A stretch of DNA of 64,000 bases from Arthrobacter sp. ISL-65. GTDB taxonomy: Bacteria; Actinomycetota; Actinomycetes; Actinomycetales; Micrococcaceae. The position numbers and the translations under genes were made by a program. Positions 1,582-15,974 of the stretch are shown here, piece by piece. Numbering within the stretch: position 1 is the first letter of the stretch; each line of letters begins with the position of its first letter. The notes below the pieces were generated by a model that saw nothing but the letters and a program-made list of their open reading frames with translations, did not search any database and was not told where the DNA came from. The stretch spans positions 32,001-96,000 of the forward strand of contig NZ_JAGGPN010000042.1 of the NCBI RefSeq assembly GCF_018613795.1, read 5' to 3'.

Positions 1582-4500
1582 ATGACCGGTTGGCTTGTCC
1601 GCTGGAGTCTTAAGTTTCGATTGATTGTTTTAGCCACTGCTGCCGGCATTCTGGGGTTCGGATTAACAACCCTGCCGTCAATGCCAGTGGATAATCTTCC
1701 AGAATTCTCTCCGCCGCATGTGGAGATCCAAACCGAGGCACTGGGCCTGTCCGCCGTGGAGGTCGAACAGCTCATTACCTCGCCTATGGAGGCTGACCTG
1801 CTGAACGGGGTTGCCTGGCTCGACGAAATTCGTTCGAAGTCAGTCCCGGGCCTCTCTTCGATTGAGATGGTTTTTGAGCCTGGCACCGATGTCCTCCGCG
1901 CCCGGCAGCTCGTTGCAGAGCGGCTGACGCAGGCCTTCGCGCTGCCCAACGTGTCATCTCCGCCGATACTGATGCAGCCGCTCTCCTCGACGAGCCGCGT
2001 CATGATGGTGCAGATGTCCTCACAGGACGTGTCGCAAATCGACATGTCCGTCTTGGCCCGCTGGGATGTCAAGCCGGCGCTCATGGGTGTCCCGGGCGTG
2101 GCAAACGTCTCCATCTACGGCCAGCGCGAACAGCAGCTGCAGGTGCAGGTGGACCCGAAGCAGCTCCGCGCGAAAAACGTCACCCTAAGTCAGGTGGTCG
2201 AGACCGCCGGCAACGCGGTGTGGGTGTCCCCGTTGAGCTTCCTGGAAGCATCAACCCCGGGCACAGGCGGCTTCCTCGAGTCCGCCAACCAGCGCATCGG
2301 CATCCAGCACGTGCTTCCAATCCGGACACCGGCAGACCTCGGCAAGGTCAGCGTTGAAGGCGCATCCGACAAGACGCTGACGCTGGCCGACGTGACCACC
2401 CTGAGCGAAGACCACCAGCCCCTGATCGGCGACGCTATCACCGGCAAGTCGCCCGGGCTGTTGCTGGTCATCGAAAAGTTCCCCGACACGAGTGTTGCGG
2501 ACGTGACGCAGGGCGTTGAGGCGGTGCTGGACGGGCTGCGTCCAGGCCTTTCAGGCATCGCCGTCGACTCCACCGTATTCCGCCCGGCGTCATTCGTTGA
2601 GTCCGCTATTGGCAGCCTGGGCCTTGCCCTGCTGGTCAGTCTCCTGGTGGTTACGGCGCTGATCGGCATCGCATTCCGGTCCTGGCGGTACGCCCTGCTG
2701 GCCTTCGTCGCCATTTCCGTGGCGGCCGTGGCTGCGGCGCTGGTGCTGCAGTTCCAGGGAGCGGTCCTGAACGTCATGGCGTTCGCGGGCCTGGTCCTTG
2801 CCCTCCTCGTTGTCATCGGCGATGTCATCTCCGACCTGCACAGTTTCCGGCGGGAATCGGCCGATGAGCGGGTGGCACGCGAAGCTCTGCTTGCCCACGG
2901 GCTGCAGCGGTCCCGCGTGCCTGTCCTGTTCGCCGGACTTACCGCTCTGCTTGCCCTCGCCCCGGCGCTGTTTGTCCCGGGTGTGGAGGGTGCGTTCCTG
3001 AAGCCCCTGGTGCTCTCCTACCTGTTGGCCACCGCTGTGGCGATGCTCGTGGCCCTGACGGTGACGCCGGCCTTGGCGAGCCTGCTGCTGCGGGGTAACA
3101 GACGGCCACGGCGCAGCCTTTCGGTGGTCCGCAAGGCCCGGCTCGGCTACGAGCGCTCGGCGCGGGCCTTTACCGGAGCGGTGGCCACAGTGTTCGCACT
3201 TGCGGCGGCTGCAATGGCCATCGCCGCACTTGCCATCGTTCCGGCCGCTACGGAGGAACTTCCTGTTGTGGCCGCTGTTCCCGACCGCACCCTCCTCGTC
3301 GAATGGGCGGCGGGGGCGAGCACAGGGGCCGATGTTATGAACAGGGTGATGACCAACGCCAGCGAAGAGCTGAGCGGAGTCCGCGGAGTCTCCTCCGTGG
3401 GCGGCCACGTTGGACGTGCCATCACCTCAGATTCCTCCTCTGACGTCAATGCCGGCGAACTCTGGGTGACCATGGAGGACGGCGCCAACATCAGCAGCGT
3501 GCGCTCCGAGGTGCGGGAGATCGTTGAGGGCTACCCGGGCCTGACGGCGAAGGTGACCACCTACCCGGAGCAGCAGGTTGCTGCTGCCAGCGAAATCGAC
3601 AACCGCCAGTTCAGGGTGCGCGTTTTCGGCGTGGACCTGGATATCCTCCGCCAGAAAGCGGACGAAATCCGCGGGATCCTGTCGCGTACGGACGGCGTGG
3701 TAGAGCCGCAGGTGGATGTCACGGTAGACCAGCCTGTTGCGGAAATCGAGGTTGATCTCGCCAAGGCGCAGAAGCAGGGCATCAAGCCCGGAGATGTTCG
3801 GCGGGCGGCTGCAACCGTCCTGCAGGGCATCGAGGTGGGGTACCTGTTCGAACAGCAAAAGGTGTTCCAGGTGATCGTCAAGGGTACGGAATCCACCCGG
3901 AACAGCCTGACAAGCGTTACCGACATGATGGTTGACAAGCCTGAAGGCGGGCAGGTCCGGCTGGGTGACGTGGCCAAGGTCACGCTCCGCCCGAACCAGA
4001 CCGTGATCCACCATGACGACACCTCCAGGCGCATCGACGTCGTGGCCAACATCCAGGGCCGCAGCCTCGGCGACGTCACGCAGGATGTTCAGGCGGCCAT
4101 CAAGGGAATGCAGTTCCCCGTGGAGTACCACGCTGAAATCCCGCCGCAGTACGCCGAAAAGCAGGCCGCCGGTGCTTTCATCTGGTGGCTCGCCCTGGCG
4201 GCGGCAGCCGGCATCCTGGTCCTGCTGCTGACGGTCCTCGGCAACTGGCGGCTCGCAGGGCTCGTCTTCCTGCTGCTTCCGGTTGCACTGTCCGGCGGAA
4301 TCCTCGCCGCCGGCCTGGCCGGCGGTTTCGGCTCAATGTACGTGCTGGTGGCCCTGGCGGCGGTGCTCGCCCTGGCAGTCAGGGACGTGGTCATGCTGAT
4401 GGGAACCTATCAATCACTGCAGTCCCGTGCCCCGTCGGATTCGCCGGCGCATCTCATGCGGCAGGCGGCCGGAGAGCGGCTTCTGCCAACTGTTCTGACC

Positions 4501-4740
4501 ACCGTGATCACCGGACTGGCGCTGGTGCCGCTGGTGCTGCTCGGCGGGCCGGTCGGCGGAGGCATGCTCCTTCCGCTGGCGCTGGTTGTGTGGGGCGGGC
4601 TTATTACCACTGCCCTGCTGACCCTATTTATTCTGCCGATCCTGTTCCTCCGCATTGGTCCACGCACCAACACGGACTGGGGGAGCTCATTGGTGATCAA
4701 CAACGGACCGGTTCTGGCAGAGAGGTCGGAAGTGTCATGA
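1582..4740 (+). CDS. RND-superfamily efflux permease with degenerate proton relay (first of pair)
   Basis: A 1052-aa inner-membrane RND permease of CusA/CzcA (HME)-like type. The ATG at 1582 has GGGGGCTGAGGT just before it and starts directly with a hydrophobic TM1, so the longer frame from 1432 is not used. It has the duplicated RND layout: TM1, a large extracytoplasmic loop (VDNLPEFSPPHVEIQTE, EIRSKS), TM2-6, TM7, a second loop, TM8-12. In TM4 the usual relay pair is altered: VVIGD at residues 411-415 replaces the VVVDD of the second permease, so the first Asp is Gly413, and the following IEN is LHS. TM10 keeps an Arg (ALAVRD). It probably forms a heteromeric or regulatory partner of the permease at 5191. 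Substrate unknown; metal or lipophilic compounds are possible. Confidence 0.85.
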   Translation: MTGWLVRWSLKFRLIVLATAAGILGFGLTTLPSMPVDNLPEFSPPHVEIQTEALGLSAVEVEQLITSPMEADLLNGVAWLDEIRSKSVPGLSSIEMVFEPGTDVLRARQLVAERLTQAFALPNVSSPPILMQPLSSTSRVMMVQMSSQDVSQIDMSVLARWDVKPALMGVPGVANVSIYGQREQQLQVQVDPKQLRAKNVTLSQVVETAGNAVWVSPLSFLEASTPGTGGFLESANQRIGIQHVLPIRTPADLGKVSVEGASDKTLTLADVTTLSEDHQPLIGDAITGKSPGLLLVIEKFPDTSVADVTQGVEAVLDGLRPGLSGIAVDSTVFRPASFVESAIGSLGLALLVSLLVVTALIGIAFRSWRYALLAFVAISVAAVAAALVLQFQGAVLNVMAFAGLVLALLVVIGDVISDLHSFRRESADERVAREALLAHGLQRSRVPVLFAGLTALLALAPALFVPGVEGAFLKPLVLSYLLATAVAMLVALTVTPALASLLLRGNRRPRRSLSVVRKARLGYERSARAFTGAVATVFALAAAAMAIAALAIVPAATEELPVVAAVPDRTLLVEWAAGASTGADVMNRVMTNASEELSGVRGVSSVGGHVGRAITSDSSSDVNAGELWVTMEDGANISSVRSEVREIVEGYPGLTAKVTTYPEQQVAAASEIDNRQFRVRVFGVDLDILRQKADEIRGILSRTDGVVEPQVDVTVDQPVAEIEVDLAKAQKQGIKPGDVRRAAATVLQGIEVGYLFEQQKVFQVIVKGTESTRNSLTSVTDMMVDKPEGGQVRLGDVAKVTLRPNQTVIHHDDTSRRIDVVANIQGRSLGDVTQDVQAAIKGMQFPVEYHAEIPPQYAEKQAAGAFIWWLALAAAAGILVLLLTVLGNWRLAGLVFLLLPVALSGGILAAGLAGGFGSMYVLVALAAVLALAVRDVVMLMGTYQSLQSRAPSDSPAHLMRQAAGERLLPTVLTTVITGLALVPLVLLGGPVGGGMLLPLALVVWGGLITTALLTLFILPILFLRIGPRTNTDWGSSLVINNGPVLAERSEVS

Positions 4741-5189
4741 AAAGCAATAGTGATTTTGGGGGCTGGCGTTCTGTTCTGGTGCTGGTCTGCGCAGCGTCCA
4801 TTGGCCTCGCCGGATGTGCCACGGTGAAAACCACCGCGGCGCCCGCCGGGCAGGCAGCGTCCACCATGGAGAAGGCCGGCCCGGATCTGAACAAACTGAC
4901 GCTGACAGACAAGGCAGTGGAAAGGCTGGGAGTGACCACGGTCAAGGTGACCAAGGGTGAAGGCAGTCCGCTGCAGGTGCCCTACGGCTCACTGGTCTAC
5001 GACGCCAACGGAAAGACCTGGGTCTACACCAATCCCGAGCCGCGGACCTACATCCGGGCGGCGGTGACGGTGGAGAAGATCGCCGACAACAAGGTGCAGC
5101 TCCAGTCCGGTCCGCCTGCAGGAACCGATGTTGTCACCGTTGGTGCCGCGGAACTGTTCGGCGCCGAATTCGGCACAAAGGGTCACTGA
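4737..5189 (+). CDS. Short RND adaptor-like lipoprotein (membrane-proximal domain only)
   Basis: A 150-aa lipoprotein. Its ATG overlaps the stop of the first RND gene (ATGA), which implies translational coupling. The signal peptide ends in the lipobox GLAGC (Cys about residue 23). The rest resembles only the C-terminal part of periplasmic adaptor (membrane fusion) proteins: VPYGSLVYDANGKTWVY, then VTVEKI, LQSGPPAGTDVVTVGAAEL. The lipoyl and alpha-hairpin domains of a normal ~350-aa adaptor are absent. That fits a monoderm cell, where no outer-membrane channel has to be reached. It probably sits on the outer leaflet and contacts the RND pump. It lies between the two permease genes, with the second starting one base after its stop. 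Confidence 0.8.
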   Translation: MKSNSDFGGWRSVLVLVCAASIGLAGCATVKTTAAPAGQAASTMEKAGPDLNKLTLTDKAVERLGVTTVKVTKGEGSPLQVPYGSLVYDANGKTWVYTNPEPRTYIRAAVTVEKIADNKVQLQSGPPAGTDVVTVGAAELFGAEFGTKGH

Positions 5190-5190
5190 C

Positions 5191-8100
5191 ATGCGCCGGA
5201 TTGTCGGGTTCAGCCTGAAATTCCGCGCCTTGGTGGTTGCCATCGCGGTGGCAATGATGGCGTTCGGCGGCGTCCAGCTCAGCACGGCTTCGGTGGACGT
5301 CTTTCCCGAATTCGCGCCGCCGAAGGTGGAGATTCAGACCATCTGCATTGGCCTTACCGCTGCCGAGGTGGAGCAGTTGGTTTCCGTTCCGCTCGAAGAC
5401 GCCCTCAACGGCGTTGAGAGTCTGGATGAGATCCGCTCCAAGTCCGTGGAGCAGCTGTCCTCGATCGTGCTGATTTTCGCCCCGGGAGCGGACCTGCTCA
5501 AGGCCCGCCAGCTGGTCTCGGAGCGGATCGCCACCGTCATTCCGTCGCTGCCCACCTGGGCGGCGCCGCCGATGATCCTGCAGCCGCTCTCGTCCACCAG
5601 CCGCGTCATGAAGATCGGGCTGACTTCGGACCAGCGCTCGCTCATGGAAATGTCCATGATCACGTACTGGAAGATCCGCGCCCACCTGCTGCGGGTCCCG
5701 GGTGTGGCCAACGTGGCCATCTGGGGCGAGCGACTGCAGATGCTGCAGGTGCAAGCGATTCCGGAGAAGCTGAAGGCCAACGATGTCAGCCTGAACCAGG
5801 TCATGGAGGTCACTGCCAACGCCCTTGACGCCGGCCTGCTGCAGTATTCGCCGGGTTCCGTCATTGGAACCGGTGGCCACATTGAGACGCCTAACCAGCG
5901 GCTCGGCATCCAGCACGTGCTGCCGATCACCACTCCGAAGGATCTGGCGGAGATCACCATCGAGGAGAAGAACGGGAAGCCGCTCCGCCTTGGTGACGTG
6001 GCCAATGTGGTGGAGGACCACCAGGCGCTCATTGGCGACGCCGTGATCAACCAAGGTCCCGGGCTGATGCTCATCGTCGAAAAACTTCCATGGGGCAACA
6101 CCCTGGAAGTCACCAGGGGCGTTGAGGCTGCCCTGCAGCAGATGGAGCCGGGACTCAGCGGCATCACCGTTGATACGGAGATCTTCCGTCCGGCAACGTT
6201 CATCGAGGAATCCCTGAACAACCTCAGCCGCGCGCTGTTGCTGGGCTGCATCCTTGTTGTGCTGGTGCTGGGTGCATTCCTCTTCCAGTGGCGAACGGCA
6301 CTGATCAGCCTGATCGCCATCCCCCTGTCGCTGGTGACGGCGGCGTCCGTCCTCTACCTCACAGGTGCATCGGTGAACACCATGGTCCTGGCAGGGCTGG
6401 TGATTGCCGTCGGGGTGGTGGTGGATGATGCGATCATCGACATCGAGAACATCATCCGAAGACTCCGGCAGCACCGGGCGGAGGGCGGGACACGGTCCAC
6501 GGCCTCGGTGGTCTTGGAGGCCTCGCTGGAGGTACGCGGGCCGATCATCTACGCCACGCTGATCATCATCGCTGCGGCGGTGCCGATCTTCTTCCTGCAG
6601 GGACTGACCGGGGCCTTCTTCAGGCCGCTGGCCATCTCCTACACCCTGGCGGTGCTGGCATCCATGCTCGTGGCGCTGACCGTCACACCCGCGCTGGCCC
6701 TGATCTTCATGCGGAAAGTCCCGCTGAAGGAACAGGAACCGCCCCTGGTGAGGGTGCTCAAACGCGGTTACCGCGCGGTCCTCAGCCGGATGGTGAGGCG
6801 GCCCGTGGCGGGGTACGCGACCTTCGGCGCCATGGCGGCCATCGGTGCCATCACGGCACCGCTGCTCGGGCAGTCGCTGCTGCCTGACTTCAAGGAGCGC
6901 GACTTCCTGATGCACTGGCTGACCCAGCCGGGCACGTCGGTTTCGGAGGAGTACCGCGTCAGCCAGAAGGCCTGCGAGGAACTGCTCACCATCAAGGGCG
7001 TCCGGAACTGCGGCTCGCACATCGGGCAGGCCTTCAACGCAGACGAGGTCGTGGGCGTGTACTTCGGGGAGAACTGGATCAGCATCGACCCCGCGGTTGA
7101 CTATGACACGACGTTGAAGTCAATCCATGAAGTGGTGGACGGCTATCCCGGGATCGTGCGCGACGTCCAGACCTACCTGAAGGAGAGAATCCGTGAGGTT
7201 CTCACCGGCGCCAGCAACGCCGTCGTCGTCCGGCTTTACGGGGACGATCTGGCGCTCCTGCGCTCAAAGGCGGCGGAGATCCATTCGATCTTTGACAATA
7301 CGGAAGGAGCAATTGACGTCCAGACGGCGCTGCAAAAGGACATTCCGCAGATCAATATCGAGGTCGATCTGGCCAAGGCCCAGAGCTACGGGCTGAAGCC
7401 GGGCGACGTCCGGCGGGCCGCGGCAACGATGGTGGCCGGCGAGGAAGTGGGCGACGTTTACCGGGGCGGCAAGGCATACGACGTCCAGGTCTGGAGCCCG
7501 CCAGAGGTCCGCTCCGATATCAGCAGCATCAGGAATCTCCCCATTGATACACCGAGCGGGCAGAAGATCCTGCTGTCCGATGTGGCGAGCGTCCAGGTCA
7601 AGCCGACCCCGAACGTCATCCAGCGCGATGCACACTCCAGGCGTATCGATATCCAGGCCAACGTGAAGGAAGGTGCACTGGGCACAGTAGTTGCGGCCAT
7701 GGAGGAAGGGCTCACGAAAGTGGAGCTGCCCCCGGGCTTCCGTACTCAGATCCTGGGTGAGTTCCAGGAGCGCCAGGCGGCGACCAACACCCTGCTGTCA
7801 CTCGCCATTGGGGCGCTGGCCGTGATCTACCTGCTCCTGCAGGTGGCCTTCGGAAGCTGGCGGCTGGCGACGCTGGTGATCCTCACCCTGCCGATTGCCC
7901 TGGTGGGCGGCGTCTTCGCGGCCTTCATGGGCGGAGGGGTACTGTCACTGGGGTCCATTGTGGGCTTCCTGACGGTCATGGGCATCGCGGCCAGGAACGG
8001 CATCCTGCTCATCAACCACTGCCAGCACCTGGAGAAGTATGAGGGTGAAAAGTTCGGTCCGGAACTCGTGCTGCGGGGCGCCGGGGAACGCCTCTCGCCG

Positions 8101-8328
8101 ATCCTCATGACCACCCTGGCCACCGGGCTTGCCCTGGTGCCGCTGGTGGTCCTGGGAAACATCCCCGGGCATGAGATTGAACATCCCATGGCCCTGGTGA
8201 TCCTCGGCGGGCTGGTGACGTCCACGCTCCTGAACCTGTTCGTGGTCCCGTCGCTGTACCTGAGGTTCGCCAAGCCGAAGGCCGAGCGGCACCAGGCACC
8301 GCCGGAGCCCGTCCTGGCTAACGCCTAG
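5191..8328 (+). CDS. RND-superfamily efflux permease (second of pair, relay intact)
   Basis: A 1045-aa permease homologous along its whole length to the gene at 1582 (FSLKFRALVV start, VDVFPEFAPPKVEIQT, DEIRSKS). The ATG at 5191 is one base after the lipoprotein stop. TM4 reads VVVDDAIIDIEN with Asp412-Asp413 and the IEN motif kept. TM10 reads GIAARNGILLINH, as in HME-type pumps, so this subunit should be proton-driven. Extracytoplasmic loops follow TM1 and TM7. Gene order permease, adaptor lipoprotein, permease suggests that all three form one complex exporting an unknown substrate. The last codon overlaps the convergent SRPBCC gene by 4 nt. Confidence 0.9.
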   Translation: MRRIVGFSLKFRALVVAIAVAMMAFGGVQLSTASVDVFPEFAPPKVEIQTICIGLTAAEVEQLVSVPLEDALNGVESLDEIRSKSVEQLSSIVLIFAPGADLLKARQLVSERIATVIPSLPTWAAPPMILQPLSSTSRVMKIGLTSDQRSLMEMSMITYWKIRAHLLRVPGVANVAIWGERLQMLQVQAIPEKLKANDVSLNQVMEVTANALDAGLLQYSPGSVIGTGGHIETPNQRLGIQHVLPITTPKDLAEITIEEKNGKPLRLGDVANVVEDHQALIGDAVINQGPGLMLIVEKLPWGNTLEVTRGVEAALQQMEPGLSGITVDTEIFRPATFIEESLNNLSRALLLGCILVVLVLGAFLFQWRTALISLIAIPLSLVTAASVLYLTGASVNTMVLAGLVIAVGVVVDDAIIDIENIIRRLRQHRAEGGTRSTASVVLEASLEVRGPIIYATLIIIAAAVPIFFLQGLTGAFFRPLAISYTLAVLASMLVALTVTPALALIFMRKVPLKEQEPPLVRVLKRGYRAVLSRMVRRPVAGYATFGAMAAIGAITAPLLGQSLLPDFKERDFLMHWLTQPGTSVSEEYRVSQKACEELLTIKGVRNCGSHIGQAFNADEVVGVYFGENWISIDPAVDYDTTLKSIHEVVDGYPGIVRDVQTYLKERIREVLTGASNAVVVRLYGDDLALLRSKAAEIHSIFDNTEGAIDVQTALQKDIPQINIEVDLAKAQSYGLKPGDVRRAAATMVAGEEVGDVYRGGKAYDVQVWSPPEVRSDISSIRNLPIDTPSGQKILLSDVASVQVKPTPNVIQRDAHSRRIDIQANVKEGALGTVVAAMEEGLTKVELPPGFRTQILGEFQERQAATNTLLSLAIGALAVIYLLLQVAFGSWRLATLVILTLPIALVGGVFAAFMGGGVLSLGSIVGFLTVMGIAARNGILLINHCQHLEKYEGEKFGPELVLRGAGERLSPILMTTLATGLALVPLVVLGNIPGHEIEHPMALVILGGLVTSTLLNLFVVPSLYLRFAKPKAERHQAPPEPVLANA

Positions 8329-11549: not shown

Positions 11550-12602
11550 ATGACTACTTCCCAGCAGCAGACCGAAGCAACCGCATATTGGACCGTGGGC
11601 CCCGGCCAGGGTGAACTGCGCACCGAGGAGCTGGCCGCCCCCGGCCCGGAGGAGGCCCTGGTGCGCTCGCTGTACTCCGGCATCAGCAAGGGCACCGAAC
11701 TCGTGGTCCACCAGGCCGCCGTTCCGCCCTGCGTTGCCGAGGAAATGCGCGCCCCGCACCAGGAGGGCTCCTTCCCGTCGCCGGTGAAGTTCGGCTACCT
11801 GTCCGTGGGGGTGGTGGAGCAGGGCCCGGCGGATTGGGTGGGGCAAACCGTGTTCTGTCTCCACCCGCACCAGGACCGCTACGTGGTCCCCGTTTCCTCG
11901 CTCACCCGCGTTCCCGACGCCGTTCCTCCCCGCCGCGCCGTCCTCACCGGCACCGTGGAAACGGCGGTCAACGCCCTTTGGGAGGCGGGGCCAAGGCTGG
12001 GCGACCGCGTCGCCGTGATCGGCGCCGGACTGGTGGGCGGCATGGTGGCCACGCTGTTGCGCACGTTTCCCCTCGCACGGCTCCAGCTCGTGGACCTCGA
12101 CCCCTCGCGCAAGGACCTCGCCGACGCCGTCGGCGTCGACTTCGCTCTTCCGGATGATGCCCTGCCGGACTGCGACATCGTGTTCCACTGCTCCGCGTCC
12201 GAAGGCGGACTGGAACGCAGCCTGAAGCTGGTGGGGGACGAGGGCGACATCATCGAGATGTCCTGGTATGCCGACCGGAAAATTACGCTCCCACTCGGTG
12301 AGGACTTCCACGCCCGCAGGCTGTCCATCCGCGCCAGCCAGGTGGGCGCCGTGGCGCGGGCCCGCCGGCACCGCCGGACCAACGCCGACAGGCTGGAGCT
12401 CGCTGTGTCCCTGCTGGAGGACCCGGTGTTCGATGCCTTCCTTACCGGCGCCTCCGACTTCAGCGGGCTGCCCGGCGTGGTCCAGGACCTGGCCGAGGGC
12501 CGGCTCGAAGCGCTGTGCCACGTCATTGAGTACCCGCCCACTGAAGCCACCGGCGCCGAATACCCCGTCCATAAAGCCAAACCCACCGAAACCGCGAGGT
12601 AA
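11550..12602 (+). CDS. MDR-family (zinc-binding alcohol dehydrogenase-like) oxidoreductase
   Basis: 350 aa from the ATG at 11550 (MTTSQQQ). N-terminal GroES-like domain with RSLYSGISKGTEL in place of the usual catalytic-zinc Cys region, so the catalytic zinc site is probably missing, as in the BchC-like branch. The Rossmann domain begins with RVAVIGAGLVGGMVATLLR (about residues 150-170), followed by LQLVDLDPSRKDLA. Reaction unknown; presumably NAD(P)H oxidoreduction of a small alcohol or sugar. It is followed after 3 nt by the pterin-synthase-like gene and then by a glycosyltransferase, which suggests one pathway. Confidence 0.8.
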   Translation: MTTSQQQTEATAYWTVGPGQGELRTEELAAPGPEEALVRSLYSGISKGTELVVHQAAVPPCVAEEMRAPHQEGSFPSPVKFGYLSVGVVEQGPADWVGQTVFCLHPHQDRYVVPVSSLTRVPDAVPPRRAVLTGTVETAVNALWEAGPRLGDRVAVIGAGLVGGMVATLLRTFPLARLQLVDLDPSRKDLADAVGVDFALPDDALPDCDIVFHCSASEGGLERSLKLVGDEGDIIEMSWYADRKITLPLGEDFHARRLSIRASQVGAVARARRHRRTNADRLELAVSLLEDPVFDAFLTGASDFSGLPGVVQDLAEGRLEALCHVIEYPPTEATGAEYPVHKAKPTETAR

Positions 12603-12605
12603 CCA

Positions 12606-13019
12606 GTGTTCAGCCTGACCGTACGCCGCCACTTTATGATCGCCCACAGCCTTCCCCGCGAGGCCTTCGGGCCTGCCCAGGGCCTGCACGGGGCGACCTT
12701 CGTCGCGGAGGTGACGTTCCGCCGTCGTGCCCTTAACGACGACGCCATCGTTTTGGACATCGGCGCGGCTGGCGACATGATCGAGGAGGTGCTGGCCGGG
12801 CTCAATTACCGGAACCTCGACGAGCACCCGGACTTCGCTGGCAAACTGAGCACCACGGAGGCGCTGGCGCAGTACATCGCGGACGCCGTGGCGGAGCGCC
12901 TGCGGGAGGACAAGGACGGACGGGAACTCGCCGGCCTGGACGTCACCCTCCGGGAGAACCCGGACGCCTGGGCAAGCTATGCCCTTGAGTTCCAGGCCCT
13001 CGAGCCCGACCGCCGCTGA
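12606..13019 (+). CDS. 6-pyruvoyl-tetrahydropterin synthase/QueD-fold protein lacking catalytic residues
   Basis: A 137-aa T-fold protein of QueD length, in the order of the family: FMIAHSL (first zinc His kept), LHGATF, LNYRNLDEHPDF, STTEALAQYIAD, VTLREN. Compared with E. coli QueD, the HGH zinc motif is HGA, the catalytic Cys four residues before it is Ala (GPAQGLHG), and the LDH catalytic pair is LNY. Only the C-terminal Glu (LREN) remains. The standard reaction therefore looks impossible by the known mechanism. The GTG or ATG choice at 12606 follows the previous stop by 3 nt. I recall actinobacterial relatives with the same HGAT and LNYRNL signatures, so this is probably a family trait, not decay. 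Confidence 0.8.
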   Translation: MFSLTVRRHFMIAHSLPREAFGPAQGLHGATFVAEVTFRRRALNDDAIVLDIGAAGDMIEEVLAGLNYRNLDEHPDFAGKLSTTEALAQYIADAVAERLREDKDGRELAGLDVTLRENPDAWASYALEFQALEPDRR

Positions 13020-13026
13020 CGCCGCC

Positions 13027-14232
13027 ATGCTCCCCCCGCTACCGGCCCCGCCGCCAGCCATCCGGCTCCTGGTTCCCGCGAACATCCGCCATAACTCCGG
13101 CGGCAACGTCTACAACGCCGCGCTGGCGCAGGGCCTCGAGCAACTGGGAACCGAAGTAACCATCCAGCCGGTCGGCGGCGAGTGGCCGGTGGCCAGCAAG
13201 GAAGAACGACGGCGGCTGGCCGGCTTGCTCACGGCGGGAACCAGCGCAGGAGCCCAAGCAGGGTCCCCGGCGGGGGTGCCCGCCAACACCATCACGATCG
13301 TTGACGGCCTGGTGGCCTCCGGCGCCCCCGAAGCGATGGAGGCTGCCGCCGCGGCCGGCCACCCGCCGTGGGTCCTGCTGCACATGCCCCTGGACGAGCA
13401 CCCGGACCTGGAAGCCCGGGCGCTACGGGCGGCCGACGGCGTGATCTGCACCAGCGGCTCCGCCGCCGCCGAGATCAGCCGGCGGCACGGCCTGGCCGGC
13501 GTCCGCGCGGCGCTGCCCGGCACAGAGCGTGCCCGGGTGGCGGCCGGATCTGAGCCACCGCGCCTGTTGGCCGTGGCGGCACTGCTGCCGAACAAGGACC
13601 AGCTGGTTCTCCTCGGGGCGCTGGCCCGGCTGCGGGATCTGGAGTGGACGGCGGCCCTCGTCGGTTCGGCCACGGCGGACCCCGACTACGCCCGCAAGGT
13701 GGCGGCGGCAGTAGACCGCTACGGCTTGGGCGGCCGGGTGCAGCTGCCCGGTGAACTGACCGGCGAGGCGCTGGAGCAGCAGTGGGAGGCCGCCGACCTG
13801 AGCCTGCTGGTCTCCAAGGTGGAGGCTTTCGGCATGGCGGTCACCGAGTCGGTGGCCCGCGGGGTACCGGTCATCGTCCGGGCCGGCACGGGGGCGGTGG
13901 AGGCGCTGGGGCTGGGTGCGGAAACTGCCCCAGGACCTCCGGACGGTGCTGGACCCGCACTGCCCGGCGCCGTCGTCGAAATGGGTGGTGTCGGTGACAG
14001 CGGAGACGCTGGAGACGGCCAATCCGGCGACGGTGACCCAGGGCCGCTGGCGGCCCTTCTGCGCAGATGGCTCACAGACCCCGGGTTGCGCGCCGAATGG
14101 CGCCGGCGGGCCCTCGCTGGCAGGGAACTCCTGCCGGGCTGGGACGCCACTGCGCGGCAGGTGCTCGGCTACGTGGCGCCGAAAGCGTCGCAGGGCGGCC
14201 ATTCCTCGCAACCGCCTGCTGATGGAGAATGA
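13027..14232 (+). CDS. GT4-family glycosyltransferase
   Basis: 401 aa from the ATG at 13027 (an in-frame upstream start at 12979 would overlap the previous gene). GT-B fold: N-terminal LLVPANIRHNSGGNVYNAAL with a gly-rich donor/acceptor loop, then VLLHMPLDEHPDLEARAL, LLAVAALLPNKDQLVLLGAL opening the C-terminal domain, and the EX7E motif EAFGMAVTE near residue 275 that binds the nucleotide-sugar. A ~45-residue Gly/Asp-rich insert around residues 300-345 (GAVVEMGGVGDSGDAGDG) is unusual. Cytosolic or peripheral. Placed 7 nt after the pterin-synthase-like gene, so it may glycosylate a product of that pathway. Confidence 0.8.
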   Translation: MLPPLPAPPPAIRLLVPANIRHNSGGNVYNAALAQGLEQLGTEVTIQPVGGEWPVASKEERRRLAGLLTAGTSAGAQAGSPAGVPANTITIVDGLVASGAPEAMEAAAAAGHPPWVLLHMPLDEHPDLEARALRAADGVICTSGSAAAEISRRHGLAGVRAALPGTERARVAAGSEPPRLLAVAALLPNKDQLVLLGALARLRDLEWTAALVGSATADPDYARKVAAAVDRYGLGGRVQLPGELTGEALEQQWEAADLSLLVSKVEAFGMAVTESVARGVPVIVRAGTGAVEALGLGAETAPGPPDGAGPALPGAVVEMGGVGDSGDAGDGQSGDGDPGPLAALLRRWLTDPGLRAEWRRRALAGRELLPGWDATARQVLGYVAPKASQGGHSSQPPADGE

Positions 14233-15467: not shown

Positions 15468-15974
15468 TTAACTGCCGGTGCGGTGCGCCGCGAAGAACTC
15501 CCGCAGCAGCACGCCGCATTCCTCCTCCTGCACGCCGGCATAGACCTCCACCCAATGGTTCAGGCGGCGCTCGCGCAGAATGTCGAACACGGAGCCCGCC
15601 GCCCCGGCCTTCTCATCCCAGGCCCCGAACACCACGCGGTGGATCCGGGCCAGAACGATCGCTCCGGCACACATGGCGCACGGTTCCAGGGTCACCACCA
15701 GCGTGCAGTCCTCCAGCCGCCAGCCGTCGCCGCTGCCACCGTCGAGAGCCGCGCGTTCCCGCAGCCGTGCTGCGGCCTCGCGGATGGCCACCACCTCGGC
15801 GTGCGCGGTGGGGTCCCCGAGGGCCTCGCGCTCGTTGCGTCCGGCGCCCAAAACAGTTCCGTCCGGACCGATCACGACGGCGCCGATCGGCACATCCTCG
15901 GTAGCCAGGGCCCGCCGGGCTTCTTCGAGGGCAAGGCCCATCCATTCCAGGTGTTGCGGATCCGCCGGGGCCAT
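15468..15974 (-). CDS. tadA: tRNA(adenosine(34)) deaminase
   Basis: 168 aa. It deaminates A34 of tRNA-Arg(ACG) to inosine. The zinc deaminase motifs are complete: TAHAEVVAIREAA (His ligand plus catalytic Glu) and LEPCAMCAGAI (two Cys ligands). The N-terminal helix LEWMGLALEEARRAL and VPIGAVV match TadA. Its likely substrate, tRNA-Arg(ACG), is encoded at 36552 in this window. It is transcribed convergently with the 14236 gene and divergently from the PAP2 gene, with about 60 nt of shared upstream region. Confidence 0.92.
   Translation of the reverse strand: MAPADPQHLEWMGLALEEARRALATEDVPIGAVVIGPDGTVLGAGRNEREALGDPTAHAEVVAIREAAARLRERAALDGGSGDGWRLEDCTLVVTLEPCAMCAGAIVLARIHRVVFGAWDEKAGAAGSVFDILRERRLNHWVEVYAGVQEEECGVLLREFFAAHRTGS

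Follow-up and report, generated by a model that had tools for sequence, protein, structure and literature searches.

What is a protein with the fold of a pterin synthase doing, stripped of its catalytic residues, between a dehydrogenase and a glycosyltransferase? The question is raised by a 64,000-nucleotide stretch of the genome of Arthrobacter sp. ISL-65 (contig NZ_JAGGPN010000042.1; hereafter the window). A sequence-only reading of the window had placed a gene of the QueD fold, with gaps of 3–7 nt, between a medium-chain dehydrogenase/reductase (MDR) lacking the catalytic zinc cysteine and a family 4 glycosyltransferase (GT4). The coordinates of the open reading frames (ORFs) bear this out. 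The three genes are co-directional, with 3 nt between the first two and 7 nt between the second and third. The middle protein is a member of PTPS-IV, an already named subfamily of the 6-pyruvoyltetrahydropterin synthase (PTPS) family with a solved structure, and is no one-off. The three-gene unit probably belongs to a biosynthetic pathway. No function of PTPS-IV was found in the literature searched, and no paper on the MDR–PTPS–GT4 unit was found in the open-licence literature, a search that most subscription papers fall outside. The features referred to below are as follows.

11550..12602, + strand: MDR dehydrogenase gene, from a branch with weak likeness to BchC and the usual zinc ligands replaced (Ser46, Tyr83, Glu137)
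12606..13019, + strand: PTPS-IV (COG0720) T-fold protein gene, signature FGPAQ, GTG start
12675..12677, + strand: codon of Ala24, at the position of the catalytic Cys (Ala in 167/167 FGPA-type proteins)
12687..12695, + strand: HGA (residues 28-30), in place of the zinc motif HGH (136/167 Ala, 31/167 His)
12801..12809, + strand: LNY (residues 66-68), in place of LDH (catalytic His replaced by Tyr/Phe in 164/167)
12954..12956, + strand: codon of Glu117, the pterin-anchoring Glu of the T-fold (Glu in 167/167)
13027..14232, + strand: GT4 glycosyltransferase gene (PF00534), E-x7-E kept; alternative start at 12979

The GT4 gene is read from the ATG at 13027; an ATG at 12979 would overlap the PTPS gene.

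A PTPS-IV protein without the catalytic triad

The window protein matches PF01242 with 88.6 bits and falls under the cut-offs of both the QueD model TIGR03367 (37.7 vs 89.25 bits) and the 6PTHBS model (36.6 vs 125.5 bits). Its residues 21-25 read FGPAQ. In PMC5445326, FGPAQ is the mark of PTPS-IV within COG0720, and GTP cyclohydrolase II (GCH II; PF00925) and RibD_C (PF01872) are the reported neighbours; the section on the subfamily does not name the MDR and GT4 partners. Both reported neighbours are missing from the window locus; they are statistical companions of the subfamily and not defining residues. The patterns of the other subfamilies do not occur: where QueD has CxxxHGH the window protein reads AxxxHGA, and where PTPS-II and PTPS-III have CxxxxxHGH or ExxHGH it reads FGPAQGLHGA.

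Alignment to QueD-like proteins places Ala24 at the catalytic Cys, HGA at HGH and LNY at LDH, exactly as the sequence-only reading had it, while Glu117 and the first two zinc histidines (14 and 28) are retained. Compared with E. coli QueD (PTPS-I; PDB 4ntk), to which it is 21-23% identical, the protein shares the T-fold, the anchoring Glu and two of the three zinc histidines (residues matched through the QueD-like proteins) but lacks the Cys, the third His and the Asp/His pair. Among solved chains, its nearest match in sequence is SCO6650 of Streptomyces coelicolor (PDB 3d7j; E 5e-38, 54% identity), which shares HGA and LNY. A predicted model of the window protein (mean pLDDT, the predicted local distance difference test score, 94.6) superposes on 3d7j with a TM-score of 0.92 and a root-mean-square deviation of 0.7 Å, and model and superposition together support the T-fold. 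In the paper on this structure SCO6650 is reported to contain no zinc, to lack the triad and to show no PTPS activity, yet to have residues suited to pterin binding.

The residue pattern has been followed through the subfamily. From 228 located proteins, 177 remained after identical or short ones were dropped: 167 FGPA-type proteins (136 HGA, 31 HGH), the truncated L055, eight QueD-like proteins, and a PTPS-IV protein with HGV in place of HGA or HGH (L106:9824-10207). All 167 FGPA-type proteins have Ala for the Cys and keep the first two histidines and the anchoring Glu; Tyr or Phe replaces the catalytic His in 164, and the catalytic Asp is retained in 8. T31, D51 and E85 are further invariant polar residues of PTPS-IV. 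The eight QueD-like proteins have the Cys, the three histidines and the Asp/His pair. The pattern is not a chance one, because it recurs in conserved families. Catalytic residues are lost throughout the subfamily, and the earlier proposal of a reused fold is supported.

In a tree of 85 rows, with HGA proteins thinned to every third and with few columns and long branches, the HGA type (100/99), the HGH-FGPA type (99/86) and the QueD-like proteins (100/99) each form one group. The HGH-FGPA clade is made up of proteins of Rubrobacteraceae, Chloroflexota and Thermomicrobiota. Rooted on QueD, the tree is most simply read as a loss of the triad first, followed in one lineage by loss of the third zinc His. 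The third ligand was therefore probably lost after the triad, and the HGH sister clade, which sits in the same neighbourhood, lacks the Cys. Of the intact HGH and Cys that, by the sequence-only reading, would mark the window copy as decayed, this clade keeps only the HGH.

PTPS-IV was detected (E <= 0.001) in 61/61 genomes of the genus, 57/197 of the family and 59/394 of the class (query from L033; two weak). Ratios of nonsynonymous to synonymous substitution (dN/dS) against the window genes are 0.11-0.22 for PTPS (4 pairs), 0.16-0.25 for MDR (4 pairs) and 0.29-0.51 for GT4 (3 pairs); they were obtained by the Nei-Gojobori method at dS of about 0.8-1.3 and are therefore approximate. PTPS-IV is under purifying selection.

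Linkage of the three genes across bacteria

The neighbourhood was read at 141 loci: 61 (60 of 12-20 kb and the first 24 kb of the window) and a further 80 named loci, the best 80 of 562 confirmed relatives. As the named loci were found by PTPS pattern and tblastn, they were not picked for their neighbours. Removal of 8 QueD-like loci, 4 duplicates and 4 without a called PTPS left 125, which include related, non-independent genomes (14 Halomonadaceae and 45 Micrococcaceae loci). Genes were called by a custom script that missed at least one creatininase (L090), family labels are profiles from one clustering, and taxa were assigned by record title, kinship code or the sequence identity shared with a named locus.

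The MDR gene is directly upstream of PTPS-IV at 121/125 loci, GT4 directly downstream at 118/125, and both hold at 114/125, so that the linkage on which the sequence-only reading had staked its case is conserved. By record title the intact trio occurs in five phyla: Actinomycetota, Chloroflexota (4/5), Pseudomonadota, Acidobacteriota (1/1) and Gemmatimonadota (1/1). GT4 is directly downstream at 0/2 Thermomicrobiota loci. One congener, G106 (L112:9734-11278), has MDR and PTPS with no adjacent GT4; the cluster methyltransferase described below has a weak relative, at 37% identity, elsewhere in this genome (C11:272525).

Zinc-dependent MDR enzymes carry a Cys in the motif GxCGTD and a His in GHE. 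In the window MDR the Cys/His/Cys ligands are not found: by correspondence to these short motifs, Ser46 stands for the Cys, Tyr83 for the His and Glu137 near the third ligand. These three residues are invariant in 38/38 sequences, as are H107, S238-W239, F253, H254, R257 and Q264-V265. Since replaced ligands and further positions alike are invariant, the branch is coherent and not broken. The match to the BchC model TIGR01202 is 43.6 bits against a cut-off of 291, and the fold neighbours are generic polyol or alcohol dehydrogenases. The GT4 protein (PF00534, 60.8 bits) has the E-x7-E pair E282/E290 (numbered from 12979), with E282 in 24/24 sequences and E290 in at least 90%. Its PDB matches include the Tll1590 protein (6kih, 160 bits) and the D-inositol 3-phosphate glycosyltransferase type (7qsg, 116 bits). 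The GT4 profile also matches a GT4-type enzyme that acts on a pterin, UDP-glucose:tetrahydrobiopterin glucosyltransferase (PDB 5ze7), with 57 bits.

Partner genes in fuller clusters

Many loci hold more than the trio. Among the 125, GCH II is present at 51 and RibD_C at 63 (either at 82), a methyltransferase at 71, a CDP-alcohol transferase at 54 and LPG_synthase_TM at 44; a creatininase is present at 22 by called genes and at 23 with L090 (tblastn). The partner Pfam families are GTP_cyclohydro2, RibD_C, Methyltransf_25, LPG_synthase_TM, CDP-OH_P_transf, Sulfatase, Creatininase and FolB. All 14 Halomonadaceae loci have the trio with GCH II, methyltransferase, LPG_synthase_TM, CDP-alcohol transferase and creatininase, whereas GCH II or RibD_C is found at 10/45 Micrococcaceae loci. 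The window locus and four congener loci (L109-L112) have none of the extra partners, and L112 is the congener locus without GT4. The sequence-only reading had proposed to check whether GTP cyclohydrolase, RibA or CDP-alcohol transferase genes co-occur; across the family the outcome is positive, with GCH II, RibD_C and CDP-alcohol transferase next to PTPS-IV in many taxa, but not in the window.

The Halomonadaceae block (L179:8041-17035 and 13 further loci) comprises CDP-alcohol transferase, MDR, PTPS-IV, GT4, methyltransferase, LPG_synthase_TM, GCH II and creatininase. Its GCH II proteins, of 367-401 aa, read YLAQEGRG where others read YLRQEGRG. An FkbM methyltransferase comes next in L179, and L229, also of this family, has RibD_C as well.

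Loci L089 and L090, taken as Streptomyces by near-identity to SCO6650, have the same trio and in addition CDP-alcohol transferase, methyltransferase, LPG_synthase_TM, creatininase and GCH II, none of which is in the window. SCO6655, a GCH II paralogue near SCO6650, reportedly makes the formylated pyrimidine because Met replaces a Tyr. Among cluster GCH II proteins of Actinomycetes, Met or His at the position of E. coli Tyr105 goes with a creatininase at 6/6 loci and Tyr at 0/19 (L235 has Tyr in its sequence, missed by the pattern, and no creatininase). The association is suggestive only, because the six loci come from two lineages. As a general rule that a creatininase goes with a non-Tyr GCH II, it was rejected: Actinomycetes fit it and Proteobacteria, with Tyr in 16/16 GCH II proteins accompanied by a creatininase (the QueD-like locus L139 left out of the count), do not.

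Likenesses to the early archaeal riboflavin and F420 route (ArfA, ArfB and ArfC) are seen in these fuller clusters, and the counterpart genes are absent from the window. GCH II takes the place of ArfA, and a creatininase-fold protein is found at 23 PTPS-IV loci. The one reductase scanned, from L092, has as its best NCBIfam match TIGR01508, the archaeal 2,5-diamino-6-(ribosylamino)-4(3H)-pyrimidinone 5'-phosphate reductase (128 bits), followed by the generic RibD C-terminal model (120) and bacterial RibD (85). A phmmer search of the called genes with the deaminase half of the window genome's RibD gave 30 matches, namely one in the QueD-like locus L139 and 29 TadA-like Micrococcaceae proteins of 154-205 aa, so that at PTPS-IV loci only TadA-sized Micrococcaceae proteins were found. 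The 2-amino group recognised by the pterin-site Glu would then stay on the substrate.

The proposed pathway and its alternatives

Family, residue losses, conservation, linkage and partner families are observations; for substrate, order of reactions and product we infer the following route. The T-fold protein would bind a GTP-derived 2-amino-4-oxopyrimidine through its conserved Glu, the likeliest ligand being 2,5-diamino-6-(ribosyl- or ribitylamino)-4(3H)-pyrimidinone phosphate or a pterin derived from it. It may carry out a condensation, a tautomerisation or a trimming of the side chain without the Cys/Asp/His triad and, in the HGA clade, with one zinc ligand gone. The MDR without zinc ligands would transfer hydride on the same molecule, and GT4 would attach a sugar. 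In the fuller clusters a dedicated GCH II and RibD_C reductase would supply the pyrimidine, the creatininase would probably serve as deformylase in clusters with an altered GCH II, and the product may be finished by methyltransferase, LPG_synthase_TM and CDP-alcohol transferase, which would perhaps link it to the membrane or export it. For the window genus, riboflavin or folate enzymes of housekeeping metabolism would provide the pyrimidine. Of the explanations weighed, the best supported has a re-used T-fold bind a pterin or a 2-amino-4-oxopyrimidine, with an enzyme of hydride transfer on one side and a glycosyltransferase on the other. Together with the reading of the window locus as the minimal (MDR, PTPS-IV, GT4) form of a widespread pathway, it is given a little less than an even chance. 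Tentatively, and with belief inclining somewhat the other way, the trio may be the core of an undescribed pathway in at least five phyla. A triad-less T-fold, in one clade with a zinc ligand lost, would there act on an archaeal-type diaminopyrimidine to give a new glycosylated, possibly membrane-linked pterin or pyrimidine metabolite, which would be core metabolism in the Arthrobacter group. Such a pathway would show how a zinc enzyme fold can find a new use once its catalytic triad, and later a metal ligand, is gone. The function is open to direct test, given the cross-phylum linkage, a partner list suggestive of intermediates, the HGH sister clade and the minimal trio in soil bacteria that are easy to grow, and PTPS-IV proteins are best not annotated as QueD or PTPS.

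Several results weigh against this route. The L092 reductase lies below the TIGR01508 cut-off (128 vs 186 bits) and barely above the generic model, and the L089 creatininase scores 134 bits to MftE (cut-off 172) against 37 bits to ArfB (cut-off 180). Proteobacterial GCH II proteins accompanied by a creatininase keep Tyr (16/16), and the six Met/His loci derive from two lineages. The tetrahydrobiopterin glucosyltransferase, at 57 bits, is far under the best GT4 match of 160 bits. In Rubrobacteraceae and Chloroploca a FolB gene adjoins the cluster, as would be expected if a folate-branch pterin were used instead. In the window genome no GCH II is linked to the trio, a cluster-type RibD_C reductase was not found among 8 of the genome's 14 RibD_C loci (the best non-RibD match has 26 bits, against >100 for cluster members), and a single query, from L119, found no relative of the cluster methyltransferase. 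The proposed substrate is therefore without support from local genes, and a trio active in this genome would draw its substrate from housekeeping genes.

That the window gene is a decaying QueD paralogue without function is hardly credible. The Cys, one zinc His and the catalytic Asp/His are lost and QueC was not found in the genome, which has one PTPS; against decay, the residue pattern is fixed across phyla, PTPS-IV is present in every congener, dN/dS is low, the model is confident and the trio is kept at 114/125 loci. Conservation thus refutes decay, and the earlier view that the copy has not decayed is upheld. A role in queuosine synthesis was rejected on the TIGR03367 score and the missing QueC (QueE and QueF were not searched for). 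Service in coenzyme F420 biosynthesis has been stated from unpublished work in PMC5041015. The F420 marker CofH (TIGR03551) exceeds its cut-off in 27/80 PTPS-IV genomes, with 9/10 in family f18 (taken as Rubrobacteraceae) and 18/23 in other non-Micrococcaceae actinobacteria, but in 0/32 Micrococcaceae carriers and in 0/15 genomes reached through named loci (Halomonadaceae, Chloroploca, Caenispirillum, Variovorax, Ornithinimicrobium and Mobilicoccus). Many carriers lack CofH, so that F420 synthesis is not what PTPS-IV does in general; this function is disfavoured and very improbable.

Two further alternatives keep the trio together. PTPS-IV may be a non-catalytic carrier or scaffold presenting a pterin-like ligand to MDR and GT4, in keeping with the absent triad, the missing zinc ligand, the retained binding Glu and a nearly constant position between the two enzymes. 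The invariant T31, D51 and E85 would fit a real active site equally well, as far as conserved residues can tell, and a scaffold is judged improbable. The pathway may also be the one proposed with a folate-branch pterin (dihydroneopterin or its phosphates) as substrate instead of a riboflavin-branch pyrimidine. The known substrates of this fold are dihydropterins according to PMC5041015, FolB is the neighbour already mentioned, and no dedicated GCH II or reductase was seen in the window genus. GCH II or RibD_C stands beside the trio at 82/125 loci, however, and GTP cyclohydrolase I is not among the recurrent annotated families, though it was not searched for specifically; a folate-branch substrate is accordingly unlikely but deserves some weight.

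Further observations and neighbouring genes

The FolB (dihydroneopterin aldolase) genes lie by HGH-type clusters (L130:11947-12327 and L169:7784-8155), divergent in Rubrobacteraceae and in line in Chloroploca. The window genome has two GCH II genes, the rib operon copy and a copy fused to an acyl-CoA-dehydrogenase-like domain (L159:9530-11386; G000 C51:36329-38182), the GCH II part of which shares 73% identity with the GCH II of the L092 cluster. The fused gene is full length in 19/61 genus genomes (one with stops) and split into two adjacent ORFs in one more; a link to the trio was rejected on this distribution, PTPS-IV being present in 61/61.

An AlkZ-like gene (PF06224; 14236-15459) begins 3 nt behind GT4. 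As its family was found at 16/141 loci, all of them Micrococcaceae, it is not counted as part of the unit. At 15468-15974 the window encodes a TadA-like protein, with 147 bits to TadA (cut-off 150), and at 1720-8328 two tandem proteins of >1000 aa that by eye resemble RND-type transporters.

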